A DNA stretch of 42,679 nucleotides from a virus. Below the pieces are notes generated by a model. The model ran no database searches, had not been told where the DNA came from, and was given only the letters and a program-made list of their open reading frames with translations. The stretch's first letter is position 1; every line of letters starts with the position of its first letter. This document shows, one piece after another, positions 5,209 through 10,662 of the stretch. Made by a program: the position numbers and the translations under genes. The stretch covers positions 1 to 42,679 of IMG/VR virus record IMGVR_UViG_3300048592_000419; one strand, given 5' to 3'.

Positions 5209-5883
5209 ATGAGCGGAAAATTTATACTTGGCGACTGTATGGACAAAGACACGGGCCTGCCGTCGATGCCGGATGCGAAGGACGCGGGGCGCAGGGTGCT
5301 GGCGATAGTAGACCCGCCGTATGGGATAGGGGAAGATGGGTTAAGTAATCATTCGCGGGGCGGACGGGCTAAGGCAACTTTATATACACCTAAAAACTGG
5401 GATAATAGCCCGCCCGATAAGACATATTTTAATGAATTGCGCCGCGTATCACATTATCAAATTATATGGGGCGCTAATCATTTTATTAGCCGCTTGCCTT
5501 ACGATTCACCGTGCTGGGTTGTATGGGATAAGCAAAATGGATGTTCTGATTTTGCAGACTGTGAACTCGCATGGACTAACTTTAAAACAGCGGTAAGAAT
5601 TACGCGGTTTAAATGGTCGGGTATGCTGCAGGGGAACATGAAACAAAAAGAATCCCGCATCCACCCCACGCAAAAGCCCGTCGCGCTTTACCGCTGGCTG
5701 CTCGAAAACTACGCCCAGCCCGGCGACTTGATACTCGACACGCACGTGGGCAGCGCCTCGTCTTTAATCGCCTGCGAGCAGATGGGATTTGATTACATCG
5801 GGTGGGAGAAAGACGCCGATTACTACGCCGCCGCTAAAAATCGGATGAGCAAAGGCGTCCAGGGGCTTATAAAATTTGAGTAG
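5209..5883 (+). CDS. DNA adenine/N4-cytosine methyltransferase, 224 aa
   Basis: This is an amino-methyltransferase that would transfer a methyl group from S-adenosylmethionine to adenine N6 or cytosine N4. FILGDCMD opens the protein, the catalytic DPPYGI is at residues 35-40, and the cofactor-binding block PGDLILDTHVGSASSL lies near 172-187. The order (DPPY first, cofactor motif last) is that of the beta class. HPTQKPVALYRWLLENY just before the cofactor block is also typical. No restriction endonuclease is adjacent, so it is probably an orphan phage methylase protecting phage DNA from host restriction. The start follows AAACAAAACGAG. Confidence 0.9.
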   Translation: MSGKFILGDCMDKDTGLPSMPDAKDAGRRVLAIVDPPYGIGEDGLSNHSRGGRAKATLYTPKNWDNSPPDKTYFNELRRVSHYQIIWGANHFISRLPYDSPCWVVWDKQNGCSDFADCELAWTNFKTAVRITRFKWSGMLQGNMKQKESRIHPTQKPVALYRWLLENYAQPGDLILDTHVGSASSLIACEQMGFDYIGWEKDADYYAAAKNRMSKGVQGLIKFE

Positions 5884-6397: not shown

Positions 6398-6410
6398 TTT
6401 TGTATCTTTG
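6388..6410 (+). promoter_or_regulatory. Probable promoter of the kissing-loop RNA
   Basis: TATCTTTG at 6403-6410 is a full match to the -7 box TAnnTTTG. TTTG at 6388-6391 is nearer than the usual -33 distance, and no better -33 box is visible. It would start RNA about 6416-6418, just before the first hairpin of the element at 6424-6511. Confidence 0.55.
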
Positions 6411-6423
6411 CGAAAGCATTATG

Positions 6424-6511
6424 CGAGCATGGAAAGGGATAGTAGCCTTTCCATGTTTCGATAAACACCCCTTAAAAGGGTTGACCGTCTACTATCGCGT
6501 CAGCCCTTTTT
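6424..6511 (+). ncRNA. Two-hairpin kissing-loop RNA ending in a terminator
   Basis: Hairpin 1 has a ten-pair perfect stem (6428-6437 with 6446-6455), extendable to 6424-6460 with wobble pairs and one bulge. Its loop is GATAGTAG (6438-6445). Hairpin 2 has a twelve-pair stem with one G-U pair (6474-6485 with 6499-6510) and is followed by T's. Its loop contains CTACTATC (6489-6496), the perfect eight-base complement of loop 1. A -7 box ends at 6410 and the initiator gene starts at 6534. The element could be a free short RNA of about 95 bases or an attenuator for the initiator gene. No known RNA family was recognised. Confidence 0.75.
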
Positions 6512-6533
6512 CTTTTACTCAAAAATTCGGAAC

Positions 6534-7229
6534 ATGACACAACAACCGTCTTACTACTCAATTTTACCCGCCATTGTGAGGTATTCAAAGAATCTCACAT
6601 TCTTCCAGAAAATTCTATTTAGTGAAATTACGGCTCTTGCAAACAAGGACGGGTATTGTAGCGCCGGGAACGGCTATTTTGCGGAGATTTACGGAATGGA
6701 AGAAGAAACCATTAGCCGCGCAATCTCCAAGCTGGCAAAAGAGGGGACTATTAAGGTTTTTATAAATAAAGAAGCAGGTAATAAGCGAAGAATTTACCCA
6801 TGTGATCAAGTTACCCTATTGACAAATTTATCAATACCTATTGACAAAAAAGTCAATACCCCTATTGACAAAAAAGTCAATATAATAATACAAGAGTATA
6901 ATAATACAAGAGTTAATAATCTCTCTACTAACGTAGAGAGCGCAAAGTCAAAAATTGACTACCTGAAAACAGATGAATTAAAAACTACTTTAAAGAAAAC
7001 ATTCCCCGCCGTTGGCGTGGACATGGAGATTGAAACCGCTATCGATTGGCTTAAGTCAACCGGCAAGCGATATAAGAACTATGAATCCTTTATGCGCAAT
7101 TGGTGCCGTCGGGAACAAAAGCGATTGTTAGAGCTTGCAAAGAAGAACGGAACAGCTTACACCCCACCCGTTATAGACACTACCCGCCCGGACAACGCCG
7201 TGCCACGCAATAATATGAACCTTGTATGA
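6534..7229 (+). CDS. Helix-turn-helix replication initiator (O-like), 231 aa
   Basis: The N-terminal 85 residues have the layout of phage replisome-organiser helix-turn-helix domains. YYSILPAIVRYSKNLTFFQK leads in, and NGYFAEIYGMEEETISRAIS then LAKEGTIKV form the recognition helix and wing. Residues about 95-140 are a linker (IPIDKKVNTPIDKKVN and an Asn-rich run) whose DNA carries three 20-bp iterons, tandem AT-rich repeats and an inverted repeat. The C-terminal part (150-215) is a helical domain probably used to contact the helicase loader or DnaB. Origin repeats inside the initiator gene are the lambda O arrangement. The DnaB gene lies 280 bases downstream. The start follows AAAAATTCGGAAC, just past the RNA terminator hairpin. 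Confidence 0.8.
   Translation: MTQQPSYYSILPAIVRYSKNLTFFQKILFSEITALANKDGYCSAGNGYFAEIYGMEEETISRAISKLAKEGTIKVFINKEAGNKRRIYPCDQVTLLTNLSIPIDKKVNTPIDKKVNIIIQEYNNTRVNNLSTNVESAKSKIDYLKTDELKTTLKKTFPAVGVDMEIETAIDWLKSTGKRYKNYESFMRNWCRREQKRLLELAKKNGTAYTPPVIDTTRPDNAVPRNNMNLV
6817..6960. other. Probable replication origin with iterons inside the initiator gene
   Basis: Three 20-bp iterons, each an inverted repeat with TATTGA and TCAATA ends, lie at 6817-6836, 6839-6858 and 6863-6882. The last two are identical (TATTGACAAAAAAGTCAATA). They are followed by a perfect 17-base AT-rich direct repeat with a 16-base period (6881-6897 and 6897-6913), a perfect inverted repeat CTCTCTAC-TAAC-GTAGAGAG (6921-6940) and AGTCAA-AAA-TTGACT (6946-6960), the same half-sites in reverse order. 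Iterons next to an easily melted AT-rich stretch are the usual form of an iteron origin. Confidence 0.75.
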
Positions 7230-7534
7230 ATCCGCTAGATACCACATACACCCGCTACATACACGCCCAGAACAGAGAAAGCAAAGACGCGCTTTGGGCC
7301 GCCCTACTTTGGCAGATGTACAAAGAGATAGAGTTAGAAATCTCAAAATTTGAATTTATAGGCCGGGGCCTGGCATTTGATAAGATCAAAGAAATATGCC
7401 ACATCGCCGAAAACAAGGCCGAGGCGGTGCAGATGATACGCGCCTACTTTTCAGGGCCGGCGGCCGGGGTGGCCACGCCCGAATTTATTAACACTACATT
7501 CACAGAACAATGGGAACGAACGCATACGACATAA
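7226..7534 (+). CDS. Hypothetical protein between initiator and helicase, 102 aa
   Basis: Its ATG overlaps the stop of the initiator gene (ATGA), and its own end overlaps the helicase start by 25 bases. Position alone suggests a helicase-loading or accessory replication role, but no loader motif such as a Walker box is present. The protein is soluble and helical, with TRYIHAQNRESKDALWAALL near the start and EICHIAENKAEAVQMIRAYF in the second half. Confidence 0.7.
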   Translation: MNPLDTTYTRYIHAQNRESKDALWAALLWQMYKEIELEISKFEFIGRGLAFDKIKEICHIAENKAEAVQMIRAYFSGPAAGVATPEFINTTFTEQWERTHTT

Positions 7535-8874
7535 CAACTAACTTAGCGGAGCGCTCTATCATTGCCACGCTTATAACCCGCCCGGAGCTATGGCCAAAGG
7601 TAGCTAAGGTGCTAACGCCTGCTATGTTTGCCGACGTGCAACTGCAAACGATTGCCAGGGCTATATACAAGCGCCTACAAACCAAAGAGGACGTAAACCC
7701 CGCGATCATATCCGCTGCCGTACCGGGCCTGGACGTATGGGGCCTGCTCTCCGACGTAGACGCCGCCGGCCTGGAAGAAAATACCGACTTTATTTACATG
7801 GAATACACCCGCCGCCGGGAAATTGAGATAATGACAGAGGCGGCCCGCCGTTTGGCTGCCATGGATGAAGTTAAGTCTGTACAGGGGTGGGTAGCAGAAC
7901 AGCGCGCCGCGCTCTACCGCGAAAAAGACAGGCACGATAAAAAAATACTTGCCATAGCCGAAACCCTATACACCGCCCAGCAGGCAAAGGAAAAGCAGGG
8001 GTTTACCGGCATACATACCGGCTACAACGACGAAAACGACCTCACCGGCGGCCATCAACGCGGGGATCTTATTATCCTTGCCGCCCGCCCGTCGATGGGA
8101 AAAACCACTTTGGCCGTCTGCAAAGCCGTCCGGGCTGCAAAGGCCGGTTGTCCGGCGCTGTTTATCACAATAGAAGTGAGCGCTGAAAGCATATACACTA
8201 AAGCCAACGCTTTTTTTTCCGGCGTCGATACATCGGCGATGCGATCAGGCAGAGGCACAGAGGGCGACTATCAAAACTTTGCCGTTGCGGCTGACAAACT
8301 TATCGACCTGCCGTTTTGGGTAGAGGACGGAAATGGATTAAACCTAGAACAAGTAGCGGCGCTCGTTTGGGAGTACAAAAGAAAACACGGCGTTGAAATC
8401 GTATACCTCGACTACCTGCAACTGATGACCACGAACAAGGAACGGGGGAAGAATAGAGAACAGGAAATTTCAGAGTTGAGCCGTGGGTTAAAAGGACTAG
8501 CCCGCGCCGTCAAAATTCCATTTGTGGTGCTTTCGCAGCTTTCCAGAAGTGTAGAAACCCGGGGAGGCACTAAACGCCCGATGCTTTCAGACTTGCGCGA
8601 AAGCGGGGCCATAGAGCAGGATGCGGATATGGTGGCGTTTATTTACCGCCCTGATTATTACGGCATTAAAGAGGATGAGAACGGCAACAGCCTAAAAGGC
8701 ATTACAGAGGTTATAGTGTCAAAGCACCGCAACGGCGCACTAAAAACGCTGTACCGAAAATTTGAATGGCCCTTTACAGACTTTTTGGAATGCTATTCAG
8801 ACGGCGGGGAGGTGCAGACGAATTACAACCCGACGATTGTCCGGGGCAATTACGACGAAGATTTACCCTTTTAA
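7510..8874 (+). CDS. dnaB: DnaB-type replicative helicase, 454 aa
   Basis: This is a hexameric 5'-3' helicase that unwinds phage DNA at the fork. Residues 1-130 form the DnaB N-terminal domain (NLAERSIIATLITRPELWPK, then the family's alternating helices). The RecA-like ATPase domain follows, with Walker A AARPSMGKTT at 191-200 and a Walker B region VEIVYLDYLQLM near 296. Near 375 comes LRESGAIEQDADMVAFIYRP, a hallmark of DnaB. The length matches the family. The start follows TTCACAGAACA. A T8 run lies at 8211-8218, but no long alternative frame follows it. The gene follows the initiator gene and the unknown at 7226, forming a replication cassette. Confidence 0.95.
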   Translation: MGTNAYDITTNLAERSIIATLITRPELWPKVAKVLTPAMFADVQLQTIARAIYKRLQTKEDVNPAIISAAVPGLDVWGLLSDVDAAGLEENTDFIYMEYTRRREIEIMTEAARRLAAMDEVKSVQGWVAEQRAALYREKDRHDKKILAIAETLYTAQQAKEKQGFTGIHTGYNDENDLTGGHQRGDLIILAARPSMGKTTLAVCKAVRAAKAGCPALFITIEVSAESIYTKANAFFSGVDTSAMRSGRGTEGDYQNFAVAADKLIDLPFWVEDGNGLNLEQVAALVWEYKRKHGVEIVYLDYLQLMTTNKERGKNREQEISELSRGLKGLARAVKIPFVVLSQLSRSVETRGGTKRPMLSDLRESGAIEQDADMVAFIYRPDYYGIKEDENGNSLKGITEVIVSKHRNGALKTLYRKFEWPFTDFLECYSDGGEVQTNYNPTIVRGNYDEDLPF

Positions 8875-9309: not shown

Positions 9310-9775
9310 AGCATCAACAACCGCCCACGCTCCCGGCACCACGCGCCGACAGTCGCAAGAGGCCTTAATCCTCGCTTGGATTATGCAGTTACCGCAAACG
9401 TTAACCACACTCGCACAGCTAACCGGATTACCTAAAAACACAATCAGCGGGCGGCTATCCGATTTACAAGCGAAGGGAATAGTAGTCGGCTTTGAAACCG
9501 CGCCGGAGGTGACGAGCCGGGGGCACATGATAAACGTCACGGTGTACGATTTTGAGCCGGACGAACACCGGCAGATCGACCACGCATACAACCGCCGCCG
9601 GAATTTGGCCATTGCTCGAATCGAAAGCAGCCTAAAGAACGACCTAGAGTTTTTGCCGCAATTCCTTGTGGCTGCTATGCGCGCTTTTCTGCAACTTGAA
9701 AAAGAATTAGGGCGTCTTCACAGCGATTACCAACAGCCGGGGCAGAGGCCGCCGGATAAATTCACGGGCAAATGA
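9299..9775 (+). CDS. Winged helix-turn-helix protein, 158 aa
   Basis: Residues 18-70 form a winged helix: SQEALILAWIMQLPQTLTTL, then AQLTGLPKNTISGRLSDLQA as the turn and recognition helix, then a wing with GIVVGFETAPE. The remainder is helical and basic (DHAYNRRRNLAIARIESSLK) with a Gln/Pro-rich tail. It overlaps the preceding gene and overlaps the methyltransferase start by four bases (ATGA), so these genes are one translational unit. It could regulate the early-to-middle switch or assist the methyltransferase; neither is shown by the sequence. Confidence 0.7.
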   Translation: MKTKASTTAHAPGTTRRQSQEALILAWIMQLPQTLTTLAQLTGLPKNTISGRLSDLQAKGIVVGFETAPEVTSRGHMINVTVYDFEPDEHRQIDHAYNRRRNLAIARIESSLKNDLEFLPQFLVAAMRAFLQLEKELGRLHSDYQQPGQRPPDKFTGK

Positions 9776-10662
9776 AACAAATTGAACTTTTCGCAGGGAT
9801 CGGCGGCTTTGGCCTTGCGGGGCGTTGGGCAGGCATCGAAACGGTTTGCCAAGTTGAAATAGACAAATTTTGTCAACAGGTTTTAGCAAAAAACTTTCCT
9901 AATGTACGACGACACGACGATATACACACCTTTGACGGCACAGCCTACGCAGGAACAATTGACCTTATTTCAGGAGGTTTCCCTTGTCAACCATTCAGCC
10001 GCGCCGGAAAACGAAAAGGAAATGAAGATGACCGCGCGCTCTGGCCACAGATGCTTAGAATCATTCGAGAAGTTAAACCGACCTGGGTTGTTGGTGAAAA
10101 CGTTTTTGGGCTGCTCACAATGGACGGCGGGCAGGTATTCGACGAAATATGCACTTCGCTGGAAGATGAAGGCTATCAAACGCAAGCGTTTGTTATTCCA
10201 GCTTGTGCCGTCGGCGCTCCGCACAGGCGCGACAGGGTTTGGATTGTTGGCCACGCCCAACACTTTAGATGCAATAGCACCGAAAACAGAAAAAGCAGTG
10301 ATAAGGGAATCAACAATAACGCGTCCAAATCGAACAACATTTTCAAATCTGCGCGACCAGATTTTTCATGGCTATTTACTCCCAACCCCCGCCGCCCGCG
10401 ATCACAAGGGAACGAACAGCGAGGCGCATTTAAGCAAGGGCAAGGGGCATCGGGGCCAGCTCCCGAATTTCATAAAATCACCAGCCAGTGGCTTGAACAC
10501 TGGTATGAAGCTGCAACCCGCCTTTGTCGAATGGATGATGGGATTACCGGACGGGTGGACAGACATAGAGCGAAACGATTGAAGGCGCTCGGCAATGCGA
10601 TTGTGCCGCAAGTGGCTTATTTGATTTTTGAAGCAATAAAAGAATACGAAAATGGCGACTGA
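9772..10662 (+). CDS. dcm: C5-cytosine DNA methyltransferase, 296 aa
   Basis: It transfers methyl groups to cytosine C5. Motif I is FAGIGGFGL at 7-15, motif IV GGFPCQPFS at 68-76 with catalytic Cys72, motif VI GEN at 108-110, and motif VIII HRRDRVWIVG at 151-160. The late motifs RLCRMDDGI and RLKALGNAIVPQVA are in the last 60 residues. The region between 165 and 240 is rich in Asn, Ser and Arg and does not look like a normal target-recognition domain. In this region a second frame (9902-10582) carries its own recognisable motifs. No cognate restriction enzyme is adjacent, so it is probably an orphan phage methylase. The start overlaps the preceding stop. Confidence 0.9.
   Translation: MKQIELFAGIGGFGLAGRWAGIETVCQVEIDKFCQQVLAKNFPNVRRHDDIHTFDGTAYAGTIDLISGGFPCQPFSRAGKRKGNEDDRALWPQMLRIIREVKPTWVVGENVFGLLTMDGGQVFDEICTSLEDEGYQTQAFVIPACAVGAPHRRDRVWIVGHAQHFRCNSTENRKSSDKGINNNASKSNNIFKSARPDFSWLFTPNPRRPRSQGNEQRGAFKQGQGASGPAPEFHKITSQWLEHWYEAATRLCRMDDGITGRVDRHRAKRLKALGNAIVPQVAYLIFEAIKEYENGD
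9902..10582 (+). CDS. Nested +1-frame protein inside the C5 methyltransferase gene, 226 aa
   Basis: This frame lies wholly inside the methyltransferase gene. It is not a plain shadow. SGHRCLESFEKLNRPGLLVK and WTAGRYSTKYALRWKMKAIK are followed by FGLLATPNTLDA, then YLLPTPAARDHKG, and near the end LQPAFVEWMMGLPDGWTDIE. From memory these blocks recur in a family of phage proteins encoded beside C5 methyltransferases, including LLPTP repeats and FVEWMMG-P-GWTD. The same DNA near 10520-10565 gives RLCRMDDGI in the methyltransferase frame and FVEWMMGLPDGW here, both typical. Its start is uncertain because the ATG at 9902 lacks a good context. It may be a separate gene, or a downstream part reached by frameshifting. 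Confidence 0.6.
   Translation: MYDDTTIYTPLTAQPTQEQLTLFQEVSLVNHSAAPENEKEMKMTARSGHRCLESFEKLNRPGLLVKTFLGCSQWTAGRYSTKYALRWKMKAIKRKRLLFQLVPSALRTGATGFGLLATPNTLDAIAPKTEKAVIRESTITRPNRTTFSNLRDQIFHGYLLPTPAARDHKGTNSEAHLSKGKGHRGQLPNFIKSPASGLNTGMKLQPAFVEWMMGLPDGWTDIERND

Follow-up and report, generated by a model that had tools for sequence, protein, structure and literature searches.

Replication control in Bacteroidota phages is hardly known, and the locus described here raises the question of whether contact between the loops of two RNA hairpins could govern production of a phage replication initiator. The locus lies in a virus contig of 42.7 kb (42,679 nt), the whole of which we call the window, and comprises the following features:

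6403..6410, + strand: putative -7 promoter box TATCTTTG (Bacteroidota consensus TAnnTTTG)
about 6416, + strand: predicted transcript start, from the position of the -7 box
6425..6458, + strand: hairpin 1, with loop GATAGTAG at 6438-6445
6459..6473, + strand: linker from hairpin 1 to hairpin 2, from the sequence
6474..6510, + strand: hairpin 2, an intrinsic terminator, with CTACTATC at 6489-6496 within its loop
6507..6516, + strand: U-tract TTTTTCTTTT, from the sequence
6534..7229, + strand: replication initiator of HTH_36 type (PHROG replication initiation proteins, best 6.5e-21; Pfam HTH_36)
7510-8874: DnaB helicase gene, downstream of the initiator

Anatomy of the element

The original prediction had drawn a ten-pair hairpin with an eight-base loop, then a twelve-pair hairpin followed by a T run, with perfect complementarity between the loops, and each of these is present in the sequence. 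Hairpin 1 has a stem of 10 Watson-Crick pairs (6428-6437 with 6446-6455), or 13 counting weaker outer pairs, around the loop at the coordinates expected; hairpin 2 has 12 pairs (6474-6485 with 6499-6510) and a 13-nt loop, with the T-run next, and its GC-containing stem and U-run are those of an intrinsic terminator. The 8 nt of CTACTATC are the exact reverse complement of GATAGTAG. Although the span first proposed (6424-6511) had its figures right, the element is better bounded as 6403-6516, and a strict two-hairpin scan of the window returned this element as its sole match. It folds at -40.9 kcal/mol (z -6.5), with 0 of 200 shuffles as strong. The -7 box predicted upstream is present but is not significant alone, with 34 boxes of this type seen across the window compared to 33.7 expected. 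The window is thus predicted to encode a leader RNA of roughly 95 bases, carrying two hairpins with mutually pairing loop tips. The initiator starts 23 nt past the end of hairpin 2, and no separate promoter fits between this terminator and the start codon.

Recurrence in other phages

Searching with the initiator as a single protein gave no relatives, and since a close relative of the window phage was not found we compared distant ones, using an alignment of initiators as the query, which brought up 160 loci, in viral contigs and in bacterial genomes. Three initiator homologues in phages or contigs (L231, L271 and L252), which are about 36-41% identical to the initiator of the window where the sequences align, share the layout and have different yet complementary loops: GGTAGGAG/CTCCTACC in L231 and L271 and AGTAGAGA/TCTCTACT in L252, beside GATAGTAG as loop 1 of the window. 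The layout was absent upstream of many other initiator homologues, such as those of staphylococcal phages. A general finder that looked for a pair of stable hairpins with 7 or more complementary loop nt and a T-run after the second hairpin found matches in 3.0 Mb only in the window, these three loci, L064, L078 and L139. In a strict scan of 2.8 Mb of related DNA there were 7 matches in 6 loci and 0 in dinucleotide shuffles, which bears out the earlier expectation that a chance match would be very unlikely; the T-run requirement matters here, because the finder without it was noisy (51 real matches, 35 shuffled).

The pattern GTAGGAG..CTCCTAC..GGCTTTTT matched at least 120 stretches in viral contigs. 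After folding, 26 coding or unstructured matches (e.g., L343, L344 and L363) were discarded, leaving 94 genuine elements among the pattern matches listed; with the 7 finder elements these make at least 101, which fall into at least 27 clusters at 85% identity among the matches listed. The consensus order is a -7 box, hairpin 1 (loop GUAGNAG), a linker, a terminator hairpin (loop CUNCUAC) and a start codon, and by folding energy 37 of 50 elements have a small central hairpin in the linker. Nine phage contigs scanned along all or nearly all of their length had one strong element each. Other queries were less productive: the window's own loop yielded only unrelated long-range matches, a BLAST of two relatives' elements against named phages gave no match, and covariance model R1 misses the window element because the window loop has diverged, its two weak matches in the window being plain terminators.

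Neither the window element nor the loci of 18 relatives had a match in Rfam 15 at the curated gathering score, and a lax threshold gave only chance-level Rfam matches for the window element region. As far as Rfam 15 and the open-access literature reach, the element appears to be an RNA switch on phage replication that has not been described before. A DUF805b RNA (RF02914) does lie at positions 389-425 of locus L397, elsewhere in the same phage locus.

Promoter, spacing and downstream genes

Across 51 distinct elements the promoter signal is much clearer than in the window: a TAnnTTTG box, the published -7 promoter consensus of Bacteroidota (PMC7366714), stands 8-60 nt before loop 1 in 27, where 1.7 would be expected (p about 1e-26); most of these boxes are 24-35 nt upstream, and only around half of the elements have one that can be recognised. 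The start codon follows the matched terminator end by 5-15 nt in the large majority of viral-contig elements, and in the deduplicated set the distance from the start of the U-run to the ATG is mostly 10-27 nt.

The genes downstream encode proteins of non-homologous families, for the most part initiators, primases or helicases, including HTH_36, Lin1244_N, DUF7833, DUF6291, VapE, BT4734-like primases and PHROG replication initiation proteins; an RNA module shared by such unrelated genes would be portable as a control device. In a few cases the gene that follows is not a replication gene but encodes an HNH or GIY-YIG nuclease, a methyltransferase or an antirepressor. The homing-type nucleases (HNH, GIY-YIG) are the first gene after the element at L397, L078, L487 and other loci.

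Of 24 contigs, 1 carried a tyrosine integrase, a scarcity that is only suggestive as the contigs are fragments, and the canonical element occurred in 1 of 395 Bacteroidota genomes, namely the starting-point genome. Together these counts indicate an element mainly of phages that show no sign of lysogeny. That the hosts are Bacteroidota we infer from the promoter and from a single Saprospiraceae MAG.

Compensatory change in stems and loops

Because the elements were selected by their loops, loop conservation among them is no evidence of structure; change in the stems is. In a 17-sequence alignment of relatives, 11 of the 13 stem pairs of hairpin 1 were altered on both sides, the covariation score was 0.54 compared with 0.19 in shuffles, and there were 83 double-change cells in the hairpin 1 stem alone compared with 29 for the whole structure in shuffles.

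To examine the loop contact we let the central base of each loop vary, excluding the canonical letters. The original prediction had proposed looking for covariation in relatives, and complementarity was indeed kept in 48 of the 51 matches, a set in which contigs of a single lineage are counted repeatedly. The 48 consist of 41 scored by script and seven (L469, L476, L500, L504, L508, L510 and L517) read in the correct register of overlapping CTNCTACTAC matches. The three non-complementary matches (L478, L484 and L513) have no hairpins; some complementary ones, such as L474, L477, L493 and L501, also lack hairpins and are probably chance. Beside the canonical G:C, the central pair occurs as A:U, C:G and U:A, each variant in several clusters and all of them spread over about 20 distinct clusters. 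When a different loop position was freed in an equally permissive pattern, only 10 matches resulted, mostly in coding DNA and mostly chance, which calibrates the background and indicates that this other position is nearly invariant.

Two further loops carry compensated changes at two positions each: relative to the GUAGNAG consensus, the window loop AUAGUAG differs at the first and central positions, and the L139 loop GUGGUAG at the third and central positions. The loop contact has a predicted stacking energy between -11 and -22 kcal/mol. Compensatory change in relatives thus supports a loop-loop contact, as judged by sequence comparison. GUAG/CUAC in the loops is conserved beyond what pairing alone requires. 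The family would supply natural orthogonal kissing pairs.

That hairpin 2 is an ordinary terminator with a chance loop match is the obvious null explanation, given how frequent terminators are in intergenic DNA, but the 7 real matches compared with 0 in shuffled sequence and the compensatory loop changes in independent backgrounds make it exceedingly improbable, and as far as sequence can tell it is refuted.

The canonical loop 1, GUAGGAGU, also complements bacterial 16S rRNA near position 338. We dropped pairing with 16S rRNA as an explanation and regard the complementarity as probably coincidental, since the base at the centre of the loop changes in step with that of the partner loop 2. Shine-Dalgarno mimicry by loop 1 was dropped as well, AGGAG being missing from the window loop.

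Comparison with known leaders

In the immunity leader of P4 (CI RNA, seqA, seqC), premature transcription termination keeps the replication genes off (PMC4825925). The elements described here resemble it in the short RNA predicted from the leader of a phage replication gene and in the complementary stretches inside that same leader. Termination brought about by the short RNA, through pairing in trans with the nascent leader, is a further defining trait of P4-type leaders. However, P4 is a temperate satellite with a processed CI RNA, whereas signs of lysogenic immunity are scarce here (integrase in only 1/24 contigs, element in 1/395 Bacteroidota genomes), and unlike P4 these leaders have a plain intrinsic hairpin terminator with a loop-to-loop contact to the terminator itself.

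Attenuators of the pT181 type are leaders of replication initiators in which an intrinsic terminator is controlled by kissing hairpins (PMC4878617), and an intrinsic terminator in an initiator leader and kissing hairpins are what we find here, from sequence alone. The pT181 system additionally has an opposite-strand antisense RNA and an antiterminator, neither of which was seen: opposite-strand -7 boxes were not enriched (6 of 51 elements compared with 7.5 expected), and a search for a conserved antiterminator able to pair with the terminator's 5' arm found none, the longest helix being 5.15 compared with 4.88 in shuffles. In the window alone, CCCCTT of the linker could pair alternatively with AAAAGGG of hairpin 2. 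The analogy to plasmid antisense control drawn in the original prediction is therefore only partial. Since some of the defining features tested, for P4 as for pT181, were not found, we file the element under neither; its distinctive feature is that the terminator loop is itself one partner of the contact.

Proposed mechanism

We consider it probable that the element is a transcription-attenuation leader of the replication operon in Bacteroidota phages, mostly integrase-less, in which the loop-loop contact would control the initiator. A promoter upstream and a start codon directly after the terminator form the anatomy of an attenuator, in which the gene would be made only by readthrough. RNA polymerase would start just upstream of hairpin 1, build it and reach the terminator, where most transcripts would end as a short RNA of ~95 nt; the initiator would be made only when hairpin 2 is read through, and the 7-8 bp pairing between the tip of hairpin 1 and that of the terminator hairpin would set how often this happens. 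In the mode we prefer, a finished short RNA would contact a nascent leader in trans; the level of short RNA would then report genome or transcript number and restrain the initiator.

What the sequences themselves support is the layout, the compensatory loop change and the repeated placement before non-homologous replication genes; we infer from them that the leader is transcribed, that control acts at readthrough, which way the effect goes and that it operates in trans. For the earlier claim that the contact controls the initiator through the terminator, the contact and its recurrent position are supported, and with the recurrent site before the initiator and no room for a separate promoter, control by readthrough is the natural reading.

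The linker bears on whether one or two molecules take part. Hairpin 1 and the terminator loop of a single molecule might instead kiss in cis, stabilising or stalling the terminator with no action in trans, which we regard as a reasonable possibility but rate below even. The loops are 42-60 nt apart on one transcript, so local concentration favours contact in cis, and in 45 of 50 elements the linker, if fully stretched, is long enough to bridge a straight coaxial stack, leaving 5 in which it is too short. Once the central hairpin folds, however, the linker cannot reach across a straight stack in 36 of 50, although this is a simple length estimate and a bent complex could still form. The lengths speak for two molecules in contact, or for alternatives in which either the central hairpin or the contact in cis forms.

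If the contact does join two RNA molecules, the leader may act as a dose sensor. More tentatively, we suggest an RNA-only dose sensor of lytic phages, in which the terminated leader would kiss nascent leaders or itself, the initiator would be throttled as transcripts accumulate, and the loop sequence would provide specificity between co-infecting phages. The element would then offer a simple system for asking if virulent phages use RNA to gauge the number of their own genomes.

The packaging RNA of phi29 is a small phage RNA with two complementary loops, and the element resembles it in that respect; it differs in its location, preceding replication genes, with no link to packaging. A stand-alone small RNA or self-assembling RNA of this kind, acting elsewhere and with only accidental readthrough into the neighbouring gene, would account for the element's own promoter box and terminator, for loops whose complementarity would permit multimers and for their partly conserved sequence; we think it unlikely, as the tight spacing to the start codon and the repeated occurrence before non-homologous replication genes point to a target in cis.

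Other features of the replication region

Within the initiator gene, 6812-6920 holds two tandem repeat arrays with units of 24 and 16 nt, which are likely origin iterons. This stretch has ~76-81% DNA identity to initiator genes of staphylococcal phages, which are otherwise unrelated. The hairpins themselves could in principle act as DNA, as a cruciform or initiator binding site at a replication origin, and their inverted repeats do adjoin the initiator gene; but the same motif serves unrelated initiators, the promoter and T-run are strand-specific, and the iteron-like repeats sit inside the gene instead, so we give this explanation very little weight compared with an RNA leader. Beside the arrays, a perfect small hairpin, CTCTCTAC-TAAC-GTAGAGAG, lies at 6924-6944 in the initiator gene. 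Imperfect 12-nt repeats (TTTGTCGCTTTT) and related inverted repeats occur at 323-584, inside a reverse-strand ORF (142-1716), and the replication module is flanked by two DNA methyltransferase genes, at 5209-5883 and 9772-10662.
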